From NCBI GenBank assembly GCA_017470485.1, contig JAFUYQ010000015.1, forward strand, positions 36,102 to 100,101: a DNA stretch of 64,000 bases, in the 5' to 3' direction. Numbering within the stretch: position 1 is the first letter of the stretch; each line of letters starts with the position of its first letter. Below the pieces are notes generated by a model. It had not been told where the DNA came from. It saw nothing but the letters and a program-made list of their open reading frames with translations, and did not search any database. Made by a program: the position numbers and the translations under genes. The DNA comes from Synergistaceae bacterium. Lineage in GTDB: Bacteria > Synergistota > Synergistia > Synergistales > Aminobacteriaceae. Shown in pieces: positions 1,615 through 10,208 of the stretch.

Positions 1615-2799
1615 TTGCAGAATAACATTTCAGTTTACCCCGTGAGGATTTCGGACGCTGAGGACATGATTAACGTCTGCAAAAAAATCGGAACTGATTC
1701 TCATGCGCTGTCATATTTAATTCCGAAGTCAAAAGCGTTTCACATTTACGCTGAAAGAGTCGATTACCGGGCGGCTAATTTCATTAAACAGGAAATGCTT
1801 TCACGCGGAGGAGATACGGCGGTCGCGAAACACGTCATTGACGGGAAGACCGACTACAGCGACATTCTCATAATGGGAACGGAAAAGCAGATATTGAACC
1901 TCATCGAGAAGATGAAAGCCATGAACATCTGGGGAATTGATGGGCTGAGGGAAAAATTAGCGGAGGCAATGAGGAATATTAAGGCCGGAAATTGGGAACT
2001 GCTTTCGCCGAACGGACACAAAATAATTCTTGGCACTAAAACTAAATTAATGGCCATTTTGAACTTAACGCCCGATTCACTTTTCCCTGAGAGCCGGACA
2101 GATGAGAAGGGAATTATTGAGAGGGCCGGAAAATTTTTGAACGAGGGCGCGTACATTCTTGATGTCGGCGCGGAATCGACTAGACCCGGCGCGGAAAGCA
2201 TTTCAGCGGACGAGGAGGCCGGAAGGCTTATACCTGCGCTGAGAATTTTAAGGCGTGAATTTCCTGACGCTTTAATTTCGGTTGACACTTACAAGGCGGA
2301 AATAGCGAGAATTTCAGCGGAAGAGGGCGCGGATTTGATTAACGACATAAGCGGAGGCCGTTTTGATTCCGAGATGGCAGGAACGGTAAAGGCACTTCGG
2401 ATTCCTTACGTCTTATCGCACATTGAGGGTACCCCGAAGGACATGGCCAAGTACGAAGCACATGAGAACATTCTCGGAGACATGAACAGATATTTTTCGG
2501 CTGAACTTGAGGAACTTGAAGAAATCCGCGAGAACATCATCATAGATCCGGGCTTGGGCTTCGGGAAATCATCGGCGGATAATTTTGAGGTTCTGAAAAA
2601 CATTGAGAGCCTTAAAATTTTCGGGAGGCCGTTAATGATTGGGCATTCGAGAAAGAGATTCACAGGTACTGACAGCATTGCAGGTACTTTGTCTGTTTCG
2701 GCGTTGATGTCGGGGAGGGTAAGCCTTCTGCGCGTTCATGAGGTCAGGGAGAATATGAGAGCATTAGAGACGGGCGAAAAATTCAATATTAGCCGTTAA
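1615..2799 (+). CDS. folP: Dihydropteroate synthase with long N-terminal extension
   Basis: It condenses p-aminobenzoate with dihydropterin pyrophosphate in folate synthesis. The catalytic TIM barrel starts about 145 residues in, with LMAILNLTPDS, then DVGAESTRPGA, SVDTYKAE, NDISGG, DPGLGFGK and GHSRKR, the standard DHPS signatures. The first 140 residues form an extra domain not found in short E. coli-type FolP; longer forms occur in anaerobes. A GTG at 1600 is in frame, but the SD GGAGGG (1602-1607) lies just downstream of it and seven bases before TTG 1615, so TTG 1615 is preferred. No other folate gene is adjacent. Confidence 0.92.
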   Translation: MQNNISVYPVRISDAEDMINVCKKIGTDSHALSYLIPKSKAFHIYAERVDYRAANFIKQEMLSRGGDTAVAKHVIDGKTDYSDILIMGTEKQILNLIEKMKAMNIWGIDGLREKLAEAMRNIKAGNWELLSPNGHKIILGTKTKLMAILNLTPDSLFPESRTDEKGIIERAGKFLNEGAYILDVGAESTRPGAESISADEEAGRLIPALRILRREFPDALISVDTYKAEIARISAEEGADLINDISGGRFDSEMAGTVKALRIPYVLSHIEGTPKDMAKYEAHENILGDMNRYFSAELEELEEIRENIIIDPGLGFGKSSADNFEVLKNIESLKIFGRPLMIGHSRKRFTGTDSIAGTLSVSALMSGRVSLLRVHEVRENMRALETGEKFNISR

Positions 2800-2845
2800 T
2801 AGTGCCTGAAATTCAACCTCAAAATACACGTAAAAAGTTTTTATT

Positions 2846-2854
2846 TGTTATAAT
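2846..2854 (+). promoter_or_regulatory. Extended -10 promoter of the accessory cassette
   Basis: TGTTATAAT fits the extended -10 pattern TGnTATAAT. No good -35 hexamer is seen 17 bases upstream. It would start a leader of about 65 bases before the TTG at 2926. Confidence 0.45.
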
Positions 2855-2925
2855 AATTTCGACCAATCATTTTCATCAACAGAATCGGTAATCGTGGTGA
2901 TGTCTACAAAGGAGGTAAAAACTAA

Positions 2926-3162
2926 TTGAACGCAATTAAAGAAAGAATTTTCGGGGCGGTTACTGTTATGAACAACTCTTCTGCCTTAAAGCTATGGGAG
3001 TTTATCATGAACGAATTTGCTCATGCGTCTGACTGGGACAGTATACCAGAAGCAGAACCTGATGAATTTGACTTGCAGATGTTGAAAGGAATCGAGCAGG
3101 ATAAAGATTGCCACGAATTTGTCTCGGCTGATGAAGCTGAAAAAATTTTAGGTATTGTATAA
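2926..3162 (+). CDS. Small acidic antitoxin-like protein
   Basis: A 78-residue acidic protein starting at TTG behind a very strong AAAGGAGG site. Its second half (DWDSIPEAEPDEFDLQMLKG, then a CHEFVSADEAEKILG-like end) resembles short antitoxin-like proteins that often sit beside RelE/ParE-type toxins; this is recollection of the pattern, not a search. No RelE/ParE-type toxin is next to it. It is the first gene of the cassette running to 7559, and a coiled-coil protein follows 21 bases later. A role as regulator or antitoxin for the cassette is inferred only from position and composition. Confidence 0.6.
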   Translation: MNAIKERIFGAVTVMNNSSALKLWEFIMNEFAHASDWDSIPEAEPDEFDLQMLKGIEQDKDCHEFVSADEAEKILGIV

Positions 3163-3183
3163 TTACCGAAAGGAGCTGAAATT

Positions 3184-4374
3184 ATGGCAAAAATAAAATT
3201 CAACCTAAACTTCGGCGGCGAACAGATCAGAACTCTCGATGATCTGCGCGATAACTTTTCCATTGAGGACGTTCTTGACGTTTACAACAATGGTCTACTC
3301 GTCAAATGGCTTGATGTTCACAATCACAAGAACGAACTCGAACAAGTCAAAGCTGTTCAGGCTACTGACGCTCGCGGCATTCTGACTGAGCTAATCAAAA
3401 TTTTCGGCATTTCTGATGACCCTTCTGAAATTGAGGACAGCCTCTCTGTTCTCGACTACTTGGAGGAGCGCAAGAAGGTTCACGAAGATATGAAAGCTCA
3501 CGGCATTTCCGACCATGAGAAACTCAGAAAGGAACGCGATGAATTAGCCCGGCAGGTTGAGGAGCTGAAAGAACTTCTTGAAGCAAAAGCCCCTGAAGCT
3601 GAAATCCACGAAGAAGCCCCCAAGCCAGCAAAGAAAAGCTATGATGACCTTGTGCAGGAAATCATCGACAATCATCAGGACTTGAACCACATCTACGACT
3701 GCCTCGACGCTATCACTACCGATTATCCCGACATTCTCAAGGAAAAATATTCGGAGTTGTTCGACAGGCTATATGCAGAAGCTGCTCACGCGCTTTATGC
3801 ACTTTTCGCTCATCACGCAACAAGGCCATATTACGTGTTGAGTGACGGAGAATTATTGCTTGATAGGGAAAGACGTAGATATTTATACCCTCCTATTGAG
3901 AATTGTTTTTATGGACGAGATTTTCAAAAAGGCACTCTGAATAATGAATGGGAAGATTGGAAAATAAAGCTGGACGGATATGAACAAATTGAAGCTCACA
4001 GACTCTTGCCATCTGTTCTCGAAAAATTACGCTTTATCAACACACTCAATAAAGTTTCGATAGGGATATTTGGAACAAGCGAGTTTCAGGTAGTAAAGCA
4101 CCCATACTTGAGAGTTTTTAGTGATGAAGCACACTACGGATGTGAAGAATTAAGTAAATGGCGCGTTATTGAGACTGCTGACAAAAAGTTTATGCTTTTT
4201 CACGCATACCCAACTATTTGGGGAAATACTGCAGGTACGTACACTCATCATCTTGTTTACGTTCTACAAGATTTTCGCATTGCATTTCCTGTGTTGAATG
4301 GCATAGACATACAACCTACAAAATATAAAGGACACTGTTTCTACTCTGGTTTCTGTTACATGGAGGCAAGGTAA
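3184..4374 (+). CDS. Coiled-coil protein of unknown function in AAA/nuclease cassette
   Basis: A 396-residue soluble protein with a good SD (AAGGAGC) before ATG. Residues about 15-55 (RTLDDLRDNFSIEDVLDVY, then NNGLLVKWLDV) form a compact helical module that I recognise as recurring at the N-terminus of various bacterial proteins but cannot name. Residues about 95-150 are a highly charged predicted coiled coil. The C-terminal half is rich in aromatic residues (for example RPYYVLSDGELLLD) and has no catalytic motif I can assign. It lies between the small acidic protein and the AAA ATPase, all on one strand and closely spaced. It may be a scaffold or sensor of the cassette. Confidence 0.65.
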   Translation: MAKIKFNLNFGGEQIRTLDDLRDNFSIEDVLDVYNNGLLVKWLDVHNHKNELEQVKAVQATDARGILTELIKIFGISDDPSEIEDSLSVLDYLEERKKVHEDMKAHGISDHEKLRKERDELARQVEELKELLEAKAPEAEIHEEAPKPAKKSYDDLVQEIIDNHQDLNHIYDCLDAITTDYPDILKEKYSELFDRLYAEAAHALYALFAHHATRPYYVLSDGELLLDRERRRYLYPPIENCFYGRDFQKGTLNNEWEDWKIKLDGYEQIEAHRLLPSVLEKLRFINTLNKVSIGIFGTSEFQVVKHPYLRVFSDEAHYGCEELSKWRVIETADKKFMLFHAYPTIWGNTAGTYTHHLVYVLQDFRIAFPVLNGIDIQPTKYKGHCFYSGFCYMEAR

Positions 4375-4395
4375 TAAATAATGGAGGTGAATAAA

Positions 4396-4623
4396 ATGAC
4401 AAACTTCAAAAACGATAAAGAACAGTTTGAACGAAAAGCGAAGTTTTACACCCAAAATTACAGAAAAATGAGAGCAAGATTTTATGCGCTTGCGCATAAA
4501 GTTTCTGAGATAGCGGAAAGACCTTCAATAACGCGAGAAGACCGAGTTGCCCTCAATGAAGCTATTTTGTCAGCTTCAGGTATGAAAACTAGAGAATACC
4601 ATCACCATGCGGCAAGCAACTAA
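4396..4623 (+). CDS. Small basic helical protein (75 aa)
   Basis: A short helical protein, rich in Lys and Arg in its first half, with no recognisable family. The GGAGGTG site at 4383-4389 lies downstream of an in-frame ATG at 4381 and fits ATG 4396, so the latter is chosen. Its 3' end overlaps the start of the AAA ATPase by 17 bases, which suggests translational coupling. It could be a small adaptor for the ATPase; nothing in the sequence proves this. Confidence 0.6.
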   Translation: MTNFKNDKEQFERKAKFYTQNYRKMRARFYALAHKVSEIAERPSITREDRVALNEAILSASGMKTREYHHHAASN

Positions 4624-6133
4624 AAAACTTTTAGCGTCATATCTCGACTCGCTCTGCCCGATTCTCTACATCAACCATTCGGATTTTGCTGACGTTGACG
4701 CGGAATTAACACGCCTTGCTGAACACGATATGCGCTTCATCGAGTTCAATAACGCTCTTGGGGCTTTGAACTTTGAGGACAAGCACCAGTTACAGCAGTG
4801 GGATCTCGCGGAATTTCTTAACGCCGTTATGGACGAGGGGTTTGACGAGGAACACGAACTTGTCATTATCCTTAAAGATGTTCACGAAAGCATGAACGAT
4901 CCGAAAGTTGTCGCCCTCCTGCGGCGTATCGCTGAAATGACGCTTGAGCGTGATGATTACCGAGCGAAAGTCATCATTATTGCTTCAAATGTTGTCATTC
5001 CGTCTGAGCTTGAAAATTTCATTACCCTTATGGACGTTCCTTTGCCTGATGATGAGGAGATAAGGGACTGTATTCACAGTTTTGCTGAAGATGTCGCTGT
5101 CGATATCGGTGAAAAAGAATTTGAAGAGCTTGTGTTTTCCCTTAAAGGTTTAAGCGCGTTCCAGATAAAACAGGTGCTTTCTCTCGCTTATCAGGGTAAC
5201 GGACGGCTTGACGCTTCTGACAGGAAATTTATTCTTAGCGAAAAAGAACAGGTCATCAAAAAATCAGGCATTCTTGAGATGATGAATTTCAAGGAAACTA
5301 TTGATGACATTGGCGGTCTTGACAGGCTGAAAAGCTGGCTGGATAGGAAAGCTAAAATTTTCTCCTCCCTCGATAAAGCTATTAAGTTCGGCGTTGACGT
5401 TCCAAGCGGCATTTTGATTCTCGGTATGCCCGGCTGCGGTAAAAGCCTCGCCGCTAAAGCTACTTCCACTCTCTTCAAAGTTCCGTTAATACGTCTTGAT
5501 GTCGGTCGTCTCATGGGTAAATATGTCGGTGAATCTGAAGGCAATATGCGCCGTGCATTGAAACTCTCGGAAACTGTAAGCCCCTGCGTTTTGTGGATTG
5601 ATGAGATTGAGAAGGCTTTTGCCGGCATTGGCGGCGGTTATGGTGAAGTTGCTACTCGACTGTTCGGGCATTTCCTGACCTGGATGCAGGAAAAAGAAAG
5701 CACAGTTTTTATCGTTGCGACTGCTAATGACATCTCTAAACTTCCGCCGGAATTTTTACGCAAGGGACGCTTTGATGAATTATTCTTCGTTGACCTCCCG
5801 ACTGAAAGAGAACGCAGAAAAATTCTCGAAATACATTTAAGGAAGCGCGGAAAGCTCAACAACAGAATTAACCTTGACACATTGAGCAAGAAAACTAAAG
5901 GCTTCAACGGCGCGGATCTTGAGGGAATTGTTAAGGACGCTATCGAAACAGCCTTTATTGACGGGACTGAAACTATCACAACTGAGCTTTTACTCAAGAG
6001 CTTTGAGGAGGCAAAATCAATCTCTGTAATTCAAAAGGAAAAAATAGAAGCCCTGCGTAAAGATTTGAAGAAATATGACATTAAGCCGGCAAGTTCTGAG
6101 GCAAGAGAGTCAACTGATGATGGCCGAAGCTGA
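4607..6133 (+). CDS. Ycf46-like AAA ATPase
   Basis: A 508-residue ATPase. Residues 1-210 are a divergent N-terminal region containing a degenerate RecA-like strand pattern (ELVIILKDVHES). The AAA module follows: Walker A GMPGCGKS (about 273-280), Walker B VLWIDE (328-333), sensor ATAND (371-375) and arginine fingers in FLRKGRFDE (385, 388). This layout matches the Ycf46-type branch rather than FtsH (no membrane segment, no HEXXH) or Lon (no Ser-Lys protease). The catalytic residues look intact. Its end overlaps the nuclease-like gene, so the two are probably coupled; it may remodel or control that partner. Confidence 0.85.
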   Translation: MRQATKKLLASYLDSLCPILYINHSDFADVDAELTRLAEHDMRFIEFNNALGALNFEDKHQLQQWDLAEFLNAVMDEGFDEEHELVIILKDVHESMNDPKVVALLRRIAEMTLERDDYRAKVIIIASNVVIPSELENFITLMDVPLPDDEEIRDCIHSFAEDVAVDIGEKEFEELVFSLKGLSAFQIKQVLSLAYQGNGRLDASDRKFILSEKEQVIKKSGILEMMNFKETIDDIGGLDRLKSWLDRKAKIFSSLDKAIKFGVDVPSGILILGMPGCGKSLAAKATSTLFKVPLIRLDVGRLMGKYVGESEGNMRRALKLSETVSPCVLWIDEIEKAFAGIGGGYGEVATRLFGHFLTWMQEKESTVFIVATANDISKLPPEFLRKGRFDELFFVDLPTERERRKILEIHLRKRGKLNNRINLDTLSKKTKGFNGADLEGIVKDAIETAFIDGTETITTELLLKSFEEAKSISVIQKEKIEALRKDLKKYDIKPASSEARESTDDGRS

Positions 6134-7559
6134 AGTCATTACGCGTGAAGAAGGTCAACAAATAGCCTCGACTATCTCAGATTTTATGAGCGGTTACGCG
6201 GAGAAATCTGAAAGCGTCTCTGACAGTGAATGGCTTTTGACGCAATTCAAGGAGTCAATGCCTGAGAAAAACGAAGCGGAAATCACACAAATACGCGATG
6301 AAATCATTGACGGTATTCAATCTCAAGAGGCCGCTAAAGAATCATTACATTCAGCGTTATCACAATGCCGTAGTAAAGAAAGCTGGTTCGCTCAGGAAAT
6401 GAGGAAAGCTGCTTCGGGCATGAGTTCCATTGAGGCAGCGACATATCTTCAAAGCCTTGATGAGGCTGTTAATACCGCAAATCAACAGCTTATAGACACT
6501 ATCACAACTAAGAGCGGAGCTGTAAGCAAAAATCAAAATCTCGACGGTTTCATTGCGGAAGATTATCACGCTCAAACTTTTAATCTGAACGCCGCCGCGA
6601 GAGGAAGCCATTATCGTGCGCGTGTCCTCAAACCTAATGGCAAAAGCTACACAAAAAATTCTGTTGATATTGTCATTGATAACCTCGACACAGGGAGAAT
6701 TTCCCGAAGGTATCAAGCTAAATACGGCGCGACAATCGAACGTTCGCGGGCAATGTATAAAGCTGGAAATTATCGAGGACAGCGTCTATTAACCCATGAA
6801 GAGCGGATTGTCGCTCCAGACGGTACAACGAGTAATATCCTAAGCAAGCAACAGGCTAAAGAATTACAGGAAAAGGCTCAAAGCGGAGAATGGCAGAATC
6901 TCAACTGGAATGAATATGCCATGAAAGATATTGCCGCTGGGATCGCGAAGAATGTTGGAATAGCCGGAGCGCAAGGATTGTTAATCGGAACAGGATTTGA
7001 ACTCGCTAGACAAATTTACGGCGATAAGGGAATTGACAGTGAAAAACTAATTGAGACAGGTTTGGAAACTGGAGCGGATTTTGCGATGAAAGTCGCTGTC
7101 GCTGGAGGATTAAAAGTAGCTTCCGAGAAGGGATTTATAAAATTTATCCCTAAAGACACTCCCACAAATGTCTTTACAACAATAGCTTTTGTAACCGTTG
7201 AAAATGTAAAAGTTCTTAGTCATGTGGCAATTGGAGAACTTACGCCGATTGAGGGCTTTGAAAAAATCGAGCAAGTTGCTACTTCATCAGTTTGCGGTTT
7301 AGCTTCAGCAGCAAAAGGAGCCACAATAGGCTCTAAAGTCCTCTCATGTTTTGGCCCTGCAGGAGCGGCTATCGGAGGGTTCGCAGGAGGCACAATCGGT
7401 TATATGGCAGGGTCAGGAGTCGCGACAGCGGTTGTGAAAGGCTATCAAAAAGTTCGCAGTGTTATTGTTGAGCATGTCGTGAAGCCTATAGTCAATACCG
7501 CAAAAAGAGCTTGGGAAAACGCAAAATCATTCGTAAGCAATATTTTCTCATGGCTTTAG
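6117..7559 (+). CDS. PD-(D/E)XK-like nuclease fused to glycine-zipper membrane segments
   Basis: A protein of about 480 residues. The N-terminal 130 residues are helical. Residues about 145-205 carry an E...D...QxK arrangement (Glu in GFIAEDYHAQTFN, Asp in NSVDIVI, RYQAKY) typical of restriction-endonuclease-fold nucleases. A helical linker follows. From about residue 270 there are Gly/Ala-rich hydrophobic stretches, ending in a glycine zipper (GPAGAAIGGFAGGTIGYMAG) near residue 420. In-frame ATGs are at 6075, 6117 and 6120; the 6117/6120 pair is favoured because AGAGAG lies seven bases upstream and it minimises overlap with the ATPase gene. A nuclease tied to a membrane-inserting tail suggests an effector or toxin. 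Activity is untested. Confidence 0.7.
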   Translation: MMAEAEVITREEGQQIASTISDFMSGYAEKSESVSDSEWLLTQFKESMPEKNEAEITQIRDEIIDGIQSQEAAKESLHSALSQCRSKESWFAQEMRKAASGMSSIEAATYLQSLDEAVNTANQQLIDTITTKSGAVSKNQNLDGFIAEDYHAQTFNLNAAARGSHYRARVLKPNGKSYTKNSVDIVIDNLDTGRISRRYQAKYGATIERSRAMYKAGNYRGQRLLTHEERIVAPDGTTSNILSKQQAKELQEKAQSGEWQNLNWNEYAMKDIAAGIAKNVGIAGAQGLLIGTGFELARQIYGDKGIDSEKLIETGLETGADFAMKVAVAGGLKVASEKGFIKFIPKDTPTNVFTTIAFVTVENVKVLSHVAIGELTPIEGFEKIEQVATSSVCGLASAAKGATIGSKVLSCFGPAGAAIGGFAGGTIGYMAGSGVATAVVKGYQKVRSVIVEHVVKPIVNTAKRAWENAKSFVSNIFSWL

Positions 7560-7616
7560 CTTTCTCTATTATTACCCTAGTAAATTCACCATATTATCAC
7601 TTAACTTCAAAAACCA

Positions 7617-7625
7617 TGCTAAAAT
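7617..7625 (+). promoter_or_regulatory. Possible extended -10 promoter of gyrA
   Basis: TGCTAAAAT precedes the gyrA start by about 45 bases and keeps the TGn spacing. No clear -35 hexamer is present. Confidence 0.35.
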
Positions 7626-7670
7626 TACATGTTTAGTCAACACATTTTAACAGGAGGCAACAAAACTTTT

Positions 7671-10208
7671 ATGCCTGATGAAATCATAAATCCCAGCAAT
7701 CAGAATGAACAGAACGACAGCCCTAAACCTCAGTGCGATGAAAAAATCCTGAACCTTCCGCTAGTCGGCGAAATAAAAACAAGCTACCTTAATTACGCAA
7801 TGAGCGTCATCGTCGGCAGAGCTTTACCCGACGCGCGGGACGGCCTTAAACCCGTTCAGCGGCGTGTCCTCTATGCAATGTCCGAACTCGGCCTCAAGCA
7901 CAATACCGCCTACAAGAAATCCGCCCGTATCGTCGGTGAAACTATGGGTAAGTACCACCCTCACGGCGACTCGGCAATCTATGACACTATGGTCAGGCTT
8001 GCCCAGAACTGGAACTTACGGTACACACTCGTTGACGGTCAGGGTAACTTCGGTTCGGTTGACGGCGACAGCCCTGCGGCTATGCGTTACACTGAGGCGA
8101 GACTCAGCAGAGCCGGCGAGTTAATGCTCGCTAACCTTGACGAAGATACAGTCGAATGGGGACAGAACTTCGATGAATCACTGAAAGAACCTCTCACGCT
8201 CCCTTCAATCTTCCCAAATCTCCTCGTCAACGGCTCAACCGGTATCGCTGTCGGAATGGCCACTAACATTCCGCCCCATAACCTCCGCGAAATAGCTAAT
8301 CTCTTCTGCTGGCTCATCGACAACAACATCGAGCCTGAAGACGCTGCACTCGCTGACATCATGCGCATAATGCCCGGCCCAGATTTCCCGACGGGCGGTG
8401 AAATTCTCGGACGTTCGGGAATAATCGAGGCTTACAATACGGGGCGCGGAAAAATCACCGTTAGGGGCAAACTCCACGTTGAAGAGTCAAAACGCGGACG
8501 GCAGAGCATAGTCATCACTGAGATTCCTTACGGAGTGAACAAGACCATAATGCTTGAAGCGATGGTTCAGGCTGTTCAGGACAAGGATATTGAAGGAGTC
8601 CATGAGATGAGGGACGAATCCGACAGGGACGGATTAAGAATCGTTGTCGAACTTTCACGGGACGCTGACGCGGATTTGATTACCCGTCAGCTCTACAAGC
8701 ATACTTCATTGCAGACGACCTTCGGAGTGATTAACCTTGCACTTGTCGATAAGCACCCCGAAATCCTCAGTATTAAACAGCTTCTCTCAATCTTCCTGAA
8801 TTACAGGCGCGATGTCGTAAGGCGGAGAACTGAATACCGTCTCAAGCAGGCCAAAGCCCGTGAACATATCATCGAGGGCTTGAAGAAAGCACTTACTCAC
8901 ATTGAGCAGGTAATCAGGACAATCCGCTCAACGAACAACGCCGCTGAAGCTAAAGCAAGCCTTCAGTCAGTGTTAGGGTTCTCGGAGGCTCAGGCTCAGG
9001 CGATACTCGACATGAGGCTTCAGAGACTCACCGGCCTTGAACGCGGAAAACTCGATGAGGAACAGACTAAATTACTCACGGACATCGCAGGTTACAACAG
9101 CATACTTGAGGACAAAAAGACTCTTGACGGAGTAATTAAGGCTGAACTCTCAGATCTTGCGGCACGTTTCGGAGATGACCGGCGCACTTCTATTACTGAG
9201 TCGGAGATTCCTGAGACTGAAGAGTCGGAGCTTATCCCCGAAGAGGACATAGTGATTACGCTCTCGAAGGACGGATTGATTAAACGCCAGCCGCTAGAGA
9301 CATACAGGCTTCAGGCGACCGGCGGAAAGGGCAAGCGCGGAGCTAACATTCATGAGGACGACAGCATAGAGATTCTTTGCGTAACGAACACTCACCGCGA
9401 TATGTATTTCTTCACCAATGCAGGAAGAATTATGTCCCTCAGAGGCTACGAGATACCCGAAACTAAATCCGGCAAGGGCAAACCTGTAGGGCGTTACCTT
9501 CCGTTAGCGGACGGCGAGAGAATCGTGAACATAGCTGGGGACGGACAGACTGATTTCAAGTATGCGTTCTTCGTAACAAGACGCGGTATCGCCAAGAAAA
9601 TATCGTTTGAAGAACTCAAGTACACCAACCGCGCAAAACGTATCATGAAACTTGATGCAGGCGATGAAATTGCTCAGGTCAGACTCACAACCGGCAGTGA
9701 TGATATTCTCATGGTAACACGCAACGGGCTTGCATTGAGGGTGTCAGAAGCAGAGTTCAGGCCGTTAGCGAGGACTGCAAGAGGTTCAATGGCGATAAGG
9801 CTGAAGAATGATGACCGTGTACTCAGCTGTGATGTAGTTGACAACAACAGGACTGTTCTTGTCATTAGCCAGATGGGAATCGGAAAGAGGGTTGAATTTT
9901 CGTCATTCATGCCTCACCACAGGGCTACGACAGGTATATGCCTCATGGAACTTACCGAGAAGACCGGAAAATTATCTGCCAGCCTCTCGGTTAAGAACAC
10001 CGACGAAATCATAGCAATCTCCTCCAAAGGCAGAATGATTCGTATGCCTGTTGAGGGAATTAACATCATGAAGCGTCATTCAGTGGGCAATATTATTCTG
10101 AGGCTTGACGAGGGCGACACGGTAGCGGACAGCAGCATAATAAGTTCCGAAGATGACAATGAAATGACGGGCGAGCTTCCGTTCGGTGAGGACGATGAGA
10201 ATAGCTAG
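7671..10208 (+). CDS. gyrA: DNA gyrase subunit A
   Basis: The breakage-reunion subunit of gyrase. It contains the conserved [20 protein letters not shown] block, the quinolone-pocket segment [14 protein letters not shown] with Ser and Asp retained at the usual resistance positions, and the catalytic Tyr in AMRYTEARL. The C-terminal beta-pinwheel has a GyrA-box-like [10 protein letters not shown], which favours GyrA over ParC. An in-frame ATG at 7629 exists, but AGGAGG at 7652-7657 points to ATG 7671 (spacing 13, a little long). The product is about 845 residues. gyrB is not in the window. psd overlaps its 3' end. Confidence 0.96.

Follow-up and report, generated by a model that had tools for sequence, protein, structure and literature searches.

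A candidate defence cassette of adaptor, Cdc48-like ATPase and glycine-rich effector genes between folP and gyrA of a Synergistaceae genome

The folP–gyrA locus and its genes

We examined a 64,000-nucleotide (nt) stretch of contig JAFUYQ010000015.1 (positions 36,102 to 100,101, forward strand), from the 1.95-Mb draft genome of a Synergistaceae bacterium (GCA_017470485.1); the whole of this stretch is called the window here, and positions without a locus label are counted in it. Its + strand carries five open reading frames (ORFs) of 78, 396, 80, 508 and 480 amino acids (aa) between folP, which ends at 2799, and gyrA, which starts at 7629. An original prediction, made from the sequence alone, had described them as a tightly packed candidate conflict system of five genes; the packing is there, with gaps of 21 and 6 nt followed by overlaps of 17 and 17 nt, but the functional unit, as judged from comparison with related loci, is three genes, perhaps four, not five: a putative adaptor (gene 2), a Cdc48-like ATPase (gene 4) and a putative effector (gene 5). 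The features, with what supports each, are as follows.

2866..2925, + strand: 3'-terminal remnant of a ParE/RelE-like toxin gene, ~20 codons, outside the system (ungapped blastn to an intact pair)
2926..3162, + strand: gene 1, orphan antitoxin, 78 aa, probably hitch-hiking and not core (second copies beside an intact toxin)
3184..4374, + strand: gene 2, adaptor and likely sensor, 396 aa, with an N-domain at about residues 1-90, a coiled coil and a variable C-terminal part (hidden Markov model, HMM)
4381..4623, + strand: gene 3, a lineage-specific accessory coding for a small charged protein of 80 aa (found in 1/36 other genomes)
4607..6133, + strand: gene 4, Cdc48/“Ycf46”-like AAA ATPase, 508 aa (Pfam AAA and AAA_lid_3 over cut-off)
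6117..7559, + strand: gene 5, putative effector, 480 aa (1,090 homologues); its longest frame begins at 6075
6138..6506, + strand: effector N-terminal helical domain, residues 8-130 (HMM effN; helices in the model)
6528..6902, + strand: effector predicted PD-(D/E)XK core, residues 138-262, with E148, D184, Q200 and K202 (invariant residues; model)
7044..7556, + strand: effector tail rich in glycine and alanine, residues 310-480, for which membrane insertion is predicted (HMM effTail)

The left flank scores 242 bits with the DHPS profile (cut-off 163), the right flank 1,016 bits as gyrA (cut-off 877), and the gap between the two genes measures 4.8 kb. For comparison, 20 genomes of the same genus, beyond the window's own, hold a folP match, 13 of them with enough downstream sequence and 6 with short flanks. 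The start of gyrA lies 44-153 nt past the folP match in 5/13 of these loci, the distance is 1.1-2.0 kb in 3/13, gyrA is inverted at 3.9 kb in 1/13, and it is absent from the 3.6-9.7 kb downstream of folP in 4/13; in the six further loci, which offer short flanks only, gyrA was not seen. As folP and gyrA are adjacent in 5/13 relatives, the cassette looks inserted, which supports the insertion proposed originally and makes it likely at the level of sequence comparison. The letters of the extended -10 element originally proposed as a shared promoter, TGTTATAAT, stand at 2846-2854, and promoter-like sites in 2700-7700 are not commoner than in shuffled sequences (9 versus 8.2, standard deviation 3.2).

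Linkage and distribution of the three genes

Gene 4 is single copy in its own genome, where four other AAA matches reach 29-31% identity. Its C-terminal AAA module, with a Walker A motif GMPGCGKS and a Walker B motif IDEIEK, scores 102 bits with PF00004 against a cut-off of 21.2 (E 3.7e-29), which confirms the intact AAA ATPase first proposed; the lid PF17862 (AAA_lid_3) scores 35.7 bits (cut-off 27.2), and the N-terminal half is without Walker motifs. The closest PDB sequence is p97/Cdc48 (5.9e-64). The “Ycf46” label, which follows the original prediction, is a presumptive one.

We scanned 30 ATPase loci (25 + 5), found partly via the effector and partly via the ATPase, with HMMs of the adaptor N-domain and of the effector N-part, core and tail, and built a maximum-likelihood tree of their ATPases (29 different sequences, those of L067 and L068 being identical), which is independent of the ATPase HMM score. 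This tree splits 14 from 16 loci with an ultrafast bootstrap of 96 and a Shimodaira–Hasegawa-like approximate likelihood ratio test (SH-aLRT) value of 99. The clade of 14 consists of 11 rows of the adaptor–ATPase–effector trio type, the shortened copy of G024, E. coli ZF34 (a CoCoNuT-type locus whose ATPase falls within the trio rows) and Calditerrivibrio. Within it, the adaptor domain is matched in 12/14 loci (11 high-scoring loci and Calditerrivibrio) and the effector in 11/14 (10 high-scoring loci and E. coli); neither is matched in any of the 16 loci outside, among which are plasmid ATPases with DUF2997, often DUF1257 and 4Fe-4S genes. The absence of a partner is less certain at L062, L063, L065 and L119, which are short or end near the ATPase.

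With the ATPase model, 12 of the 30 loci score 496-875 bits, 11 of them with the adaptor domain and 10 with the effector, a score that is partly circular because 8 of these 12 highest-scoring ATPases trained the model. The other 18 score 259-462 bits, and 16 of them have neither partner; the two that do are L031 (E. coli), with an effector match, and L041 (Calditerrivibrio), with an adaptor match. At L117 (G019), the adaptor is present and the contig ends within the ATPase. Most trio rows also trained the adaptor and effector HMMs, a circularity as well, with L037, L061, L115 and L117 standing outside the adaptor training set. In leave-one-out scans, the adaptor scored 46-98 bits, the tail 67-181 bits and the effector N-part 28-102 bits, with two exceptions; weak values came from the Calditerrivibrio adaptor (15.9 bits, E 0.0015) and the Exiguobacterium effector N-part (13.7 bits, E 0.006), and E values for the adaptor N-domain spanned 1.5e-3 to 4.6e-29. 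Gene order varies, the effector coming first in Exiguobacterium and Microcystis and the genes lying on opposite strands in G022, so that the linkage is more than one inherited operon. On the sequences compared, then, the adaptor, ATPase and effector genes travel together; the co-occurrence across phyla that the five genes were expected to display holds for this trio, genes 1 and 3 having no match at the related loci of the clade and being no core parts of it.

Two further loci bear on the count. In G018, a nuclease-type effector sits after an ATPase cut by the contig end, a locus outside the 30. On the Calditerrivibrio plasmid, the adaptor adjoins the 462-bit ATPase, followed by two short ORFs resembling a split effector, which was left uncounted because their scores are weak (10 and 13.5 bits).

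The ATPase is found at E <= 1e-75 in 9/185 Synergistota with the window protein as query, seven being of the trio type (G018 assigned to it by 84% identity) and two not, and in 10/398 Bacillota with the second Anoxybacillus protein as query, G061, G090 and G422 being of the trio type. The 185 Synergistota include 10 with the adaptor domain, 7 with a trio-type ATPase and 6 with both (P 2.8e-8, kinship being ignored; 6/7 of the genomes with the trio-type ATPase belong to one genus). The effector is present in 6/61 genomes, the own genome and fragments counted, in 3/398 Bacillota at E <= 1e-10 (the reference genome G061, G090 and, as a remote relative, G115) and, with a Klebsiella-plasmid gene as query, in 3/5,426 E. 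coli genomes. It is matched on 15/72,556 plasmids, none of the matches covering >80% of the query, and in 1/50,697 phage records, that one being a faecal contig of 4.6 kb without annotation. In IMG/VR, 157 stretches fit two search patterns and none encodes a relative; with this and the single phage record, a phage origin of the cassette was rejected. ATPase relatives from three plasmids of cyanobacteria show 32, 37 and 54% identity. Plasmid contexts are a sample, 10/663 records of one search and 2/15 of the effector matches having been examined.

Genes 1 and 3 are a different matter. Gene 3 has a counterpart in G018 alone among the 36 other genomes, directly behind an adaptor gene without a neighbouring ATPase, and among the 14 clade loci it occurs in the window's own; being lineage-specific, it was rejected as a core part. 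For gene 1, window positions 2866-3162 match an intact toxin–antitoxin pair on contig 1 of the own genome (G000, L129) at 82% over 297 nt in ungapped blastn, the DNA similarity beginning 60 nt upstream of gene 1, within the toxin 3' end, and running to the end of gene 1. The intact toxin of that pair scores 22.6 bits with ParE_toxin, just below the Pfam cut-off of 23, and both the second gene 1 copy of the own genome and the copy in G010 sit directly after an intact ParE/RelE-like toxin ORF. No intact toxin gene adjoins gene 1 in the window; as a 60-nt remnant of the toxin 3' end is all that is left before it, gene 1 is an orphan antitoxin. It occurs in 9/37 genomes, namely the own genome, seven without any effector match, and G022, where gene-1 relative and cassette lie on different contigs, and tblastn found no match to it in the 14 related loci. 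The acidic, antitoxin-like protein first described as leading the set does belong to an antitoxin family, but as a toxin–antitoxin leftover it was rejected as leader of the system.

Architecture of the adaptor and the effector

The adaptor N-domain (~90 residues, pattern IKFNL...IRTLDDLR.NF..EDVL..Y.NGLL..WL) matches no Pfam family at E <= 0.01 in any of 13 rows and nothing in the PDB below E 0.17; the one Pfam match, to DUF6950, comes from 1/13 rows at E 0.031. Named relatives of gene 2 come from Synergistaceae metagenome-assembled genomes. What follows the domain differs from copy to copy. The window protein has a coiled coil and a C-terminal part alignable with the Anoxybacillus copy; G019 has ankyrin repeats, G090 Sel1 repeats, Calditerrivibrio a right-handed beta-helix, and the second Anoxybacillus copy an end of 500 residues without Pfam match. 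In Microcystis, a CobW GTPase is joined to the domain, the annotated start falling downstream of the domain, and in G422 a single frame of 845 residues carries the domain at the N-terminus of the ATPase (E 1.6e-6 for the adaptor, 573 bits for the ATPase). We infer that the adaptor may be a conserved docking domain with an exchangeable sensor end.

Two adaptor loci show possible decay. The G032 adaptor (L027:4603-5506) is split across two overlapping frames, either by a sequencing error or in a broken gene. In G022, which has a full adaptor on the opposite strand, a short frame just before the ATPase (L026:5625-5957, +) gives a weak adaptor-domain match (E 2e-4) and is perhaps a decayed second adaptor.

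Effector homologues number 1,090 at E <= 0.001 among 7,997 candidates scored. In 129/129 aligned homologues, E148, D184, Q200 and K202 are invariant, and the E-D-QxK nuclease-like motif noted at the outset in the last gene is thereby confirmed. A first fold from 26 sequences was poor, with a predicted local distance difference test score (pLDDT) of 48, and the tail did not fold well; with 129 rows, the model of residues 1-275 (m9838c15d20bc) reaches a mean pLDDT of 85.7. Its core elements are predicted as H142-162, E166-170, E185-189, E194-201, H207-216 and a short E223-225, which is the alpha-beta-beta-beta-alpha-beta order of PD-(D/E)XK folds. The fold proposed for this gene agrees with the element order in the model. 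Fold matches are weak, and Foldseek returned nothing from the PDB at E <= 0.001; no Mrr-type Pfam match was found at E <= 1. Nuclease activity of the core would fit the invariant residues.

The tail is indeed rich in glycine and alanine, as had been said, but only weakly hydrophobic (best 19-residue mean 1.38), and appears glycine-zipper-like rather than made of classical transmembrane helices. The window effector scores 18.6 bits with PF20721 (C19orf12), below the cut-off of 30; an Anoxybacillus relative passes the PF13488 Gly-zipper cut-off by 0.2 bit, which the window protein does not reach, and the effector profile has one weak match among PDB sequences, a tape measure protein, across the tail (E 0.0036). 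We would expect the tail to insert in a membrane. Seven effector relatives have no nuclease core and keep the glycine-rich tail, and the N-terminal helical domain is common to versions with and without the core. As far as sequence can tell, then, adaptor ends are swapped over a constant N-domain, and the core is optional while the helical N-part and the tail stay.

In G115 (L036:6113-11398), a dynamin-like GTPase lies beside a 491-aa protein remotely like the effector core (E 5.6e-7) and tail (E 1.8e-5), perhaps the same kind of effector under a different motor.

A possible defence role, its alternatives and the neighbouring genes

That the three-gene cassette is a defence of the abortive-infection type seems to us plausible without being quite probable. 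The adaptor would sense a trigger via its variable C-terminal part and pass the signal on through its N-domain. The Cdc48-like ATPase receiving it would remodel the effector or set it free; the glycine-rich tail would then enter the cell's own membrane, and the E-D-QxK core, in versions having one, would cut nucleic acid. The infected cell would presumably stop growing or die, a phage or other invader being the presumed trigger; sensing by the adaptor and, in all cases, its contact with the ATPase are likewise presumed. The linkage of the three genes, the adaptor–ATPase fusion in G422, the swapped adaptor ends, the invariant catalytic residues, the patchy distribution and the likely insertion between folP and gyrA were counted for this proposal.

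Some copies also lie near known defence genes. The second Anoxybacillus copy has a WYL regulator directly upstream (L024:3482-4450) and, downstream, an ApeA-like protein (33 bits) at 1.1 kb and a Type I methyltransferase at 3.5 kb; the first copy also has a WYL regulator upstream, with one gene between (L019:4843-5874). McrBC lies 65 nt upstream of the Exiguobacterium trio, and BREX genes, a CARF nuclease and TerY-P genes are near the E. coli ZF34 locus. The proximity to defence genes anticipated originally thus holds for the second Anoxybacillus copy, Exiguobacterium and E. coli ZF34, but not for the window, G032 and G022.

Several observations weigh against an abortive-infection cassette, to which the weak fold matches, the weakly hydrophobic tail, the training overlap of the HMMs and the two weak leave-one-out scores given above must be added. 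No other defence gene was found beside the window cassette, nor were defence neighbours seen by eye at the G032 and G022 loci, and those listed come from loci picked for reading, without a background rate. PADLOC gave no match for the effector at E <= 1, and its adaptor matches are weak and of coiled-coil type (best E 0.0018). The adaptor domain occurs without a trio-type ATPase in 4/185 Synergistota (G001, which holds effector fragments; G034, where the domain is cut by the contig end; G479; G497), while the shortened ATPase of L116/G024 has neither partner beside it, effector pieces lying on another contig. In the ATPase tree, E. coli ZF34 and Calditerrivibrio sit on long branches, and the trio label, taken strictly, costs 3 changes. 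Lastly, in PMC11090510 the PD-(D/E)XK-like domain of the CoCoNuT glycine-zipper protein is read as inactivated.

Type III-A CoCoNuTs have a second 5' extension, described in PMC11090510, in which a SpoVK/CDC48-like ATPase occurs with that glycine-zipper protein, and here lies the closest likeness. The effector is homologous (on plasmids 34% with 78% of the query covered, and ~40% across the first 275 residues in E. coli-type rows), with a PD-(D/E)XK-like fold and a glycine zipper; the ATPase is 35% identical, within the 14-locus clade, and a CDC48-like ATPase stands beside the glycine-zipper homologue. The order at E. coli ZF34 (VWA, effector, ATPase, Card1-like, VWA, PP2C, kinase, helicase) matches the CoCoNuT layout published there. 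The window cassette differs in having folP and gyrA as neighbours, without VWA, CARF or TerY-P genes or the CoCoNuT core genes, and in having the adaptor instead; its 508-aa ATPase lacks the C-terminal extension seen in the E. coli protein of 715 aa, E-D-QxK is invariant, in E. coli ZF34 too, rather than inactivated, and core-less effectors exist. No description of a stand-alone, adaptor-linked trio was found in the open-licence literature of PubMed Central, subscription papers not being covered, and the passages of PMC12458937 and PMC7159879 that matched by terms are not about it. Within that literature, the original statement that no described system with this combination is known agrees with the result for the stand-alone trio, but not for the ATPase/glycine-zipper pair, which is published as embedded in CoCoNuTs. 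What the present comparison adds is the trio as a stand-alone unit, the adaptor with its fusions, effectors without the core, and a catalytic set that is intact.

Other likenesses are partial. IetAS has a similar AAA module (PADLOC IetA 8.4e-29), but the NCBIfam IetA equivalog gives 90.9 bits against a cut-off of 510 and no peptidase match occurs among the five window proteins, so that identity with IetAS was rejected, the likeness being confined to the ATPase. The “Ycf46-like” plasmid and cyanobacterial ATPases with DUF2997, often DUF1257 (five loci, L040 and L043-L046), belong to the same broader family at 30-37% identity but are placed by the tree with the 16 loci that the clade excludes, with different neighbours and no adaptor or effector matches. 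According to PMC12707154, PD-QxK is the catalytic site of MspJI and EcoKMrr; the window effector has the same E...D...QxK order and, in the model, the same element order, but its core has a helical domain before it and a glycine-rich tail behind it. Tde1, reported in PMC10240207 as a DNase effector of the type VI secretion system with a glycine zipper for target-cell entry, likewise joins nuclease and glycine zipper in one protein, but is secreted, whereas the window effector is linked to an ATPase and an adaptor.

Among the rival explanations, a membrane or proteotoxic stress system, in which the ATPase extracts or refolds clients delivered by the adaptor, the glycine-zipper protein is an anchor or client and the core only binds nucleic acid, strikes us as unlikely. 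It draws on the nearness of the ATPase to p97/Cdc48 among PDB sequences, on ankyrin and Sel1 adaptors that resemble client-binding repeats, on the seven core-less effectors, which make cutting non-essential, and on the CoCoNuT authors, who connect the ATPase with quality control of the CDC48 type and regard the domain as inactivated (PMC11090510). Patchy presence, insertion, invariant E-D-QxK, plasmid carriage and some defence neighbours fit a conflict system better. We hold it rather more unlikely that the cassette is a stand-alone restriction system resembling Type IV, the adaptor-guided ATPase acting on foreign nucleic acid, the effector cutting it and the tail serving oligomerisation alone. 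The PD-QxK site shared with the modification-dependent MspJI and Mrr, the McrBC genes next to the Exiguobacterium trio and the relatives embedded in an apparent CoCoNuT Type IV system speak for it; core-less effectors, that of Exiguobacterium too, retain the tail, however, and the ATPase is Cdc48-like, p97 being a protein remodeller and not a DNA translocase.

A secreted interbacterial toxin, with gene 5 exported, its glycine zipper entering a neighbour cell and the ATPase aiding assembly or export, appears improbable, somewhat more so than restriction. The cassette has no secretion gene or obvious immunity gene, and an exported toxin would not be expected to lack its core in some versions, to overlap with the ATPase gene or to come with swapped adaptors, against which stand the Tde1-like architecture (PMC10240207), the name “LXG domain-containing” given by one source to P0033 and P0050, among the matches listed, and an out-of-clade ATPase relative among VgrG/baseplate genes of a Treponema plasmid. 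We would all but dismiss a toxin–antitoxin operon headed by the acidic 78-aa protein: the gene 1 family does pair with ParE/RelE-like toxins, and gene 1 lies 21 nt upstream of gene 2, but its toxin partner is reduced to the 3' end at 2866-2925, copies exist without the cassette, and the 14 related loci are without a gene 1 match.

Abortive infection thus stays our preferred proposal. A fuller version of it, which we consider possible but rather doubtful, is an undescribed immune family: a Cdc48-like unfoldase, acting as a hexamer and under the command of an exchangeable sensor, would arm a suicide protein that is both pore-forming and a nuclease. One conserved docking domain would serve many swapped sensor ends, the membrane tail would always be present and the PD-QxK nuclease optional. 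Members of the family would be plasmid and chromosome cassettes of Synergistota, Bacillota and Cyanobacteriota, and the Type III-A CoCoNuT form would have arisen from among them. If true, a cassette hitherto recorded just as a CoCoNuT add-on has in the window a relative that stands alone and may be its source; the adaptor would supply the missing input module, and the published view of a dead nuclease would be questioned. A Cdc48-type motor arming a membrane/nuclease suicide protein would be an unusual trigger of abortive infection, and with their interchangeable ends the sensors would offer a collection in which to look for the cue that each detects.

Some neighbouring genes deserve mention for themselves. 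In G018, effector copies are followed by proteins of 447 and 721 aa (L007:2566-3909; L028:5413-7581, -) that resemble each other on visual comparison, possibly an extra RNA-targeting effector; the one of 447 aa gives 21 bits with a cold-shock and 19.3 bits with a Swt1-like HEPN profile, both under cut-off. In G422, an AIG1/MMR_HSR1-type GTPase with a DUF697 region lies just upstream of the fused adaptor–ATPase gene (L061:9720-11015, -). The out-of-clade relative on the Treponema succinifaciens plasmid (L039:1-15000) lies among VgrG/Pvc8 and baseplate V contractile-injection genes. Finally, the plasmid set of L040 and L043-L046, in which a Ycf46-like ATPase is accompanied by DUF2997 and in many cases by DUF1257 or a 4Fe-4S protein, also occurs on a conjugative IncC plasmid.

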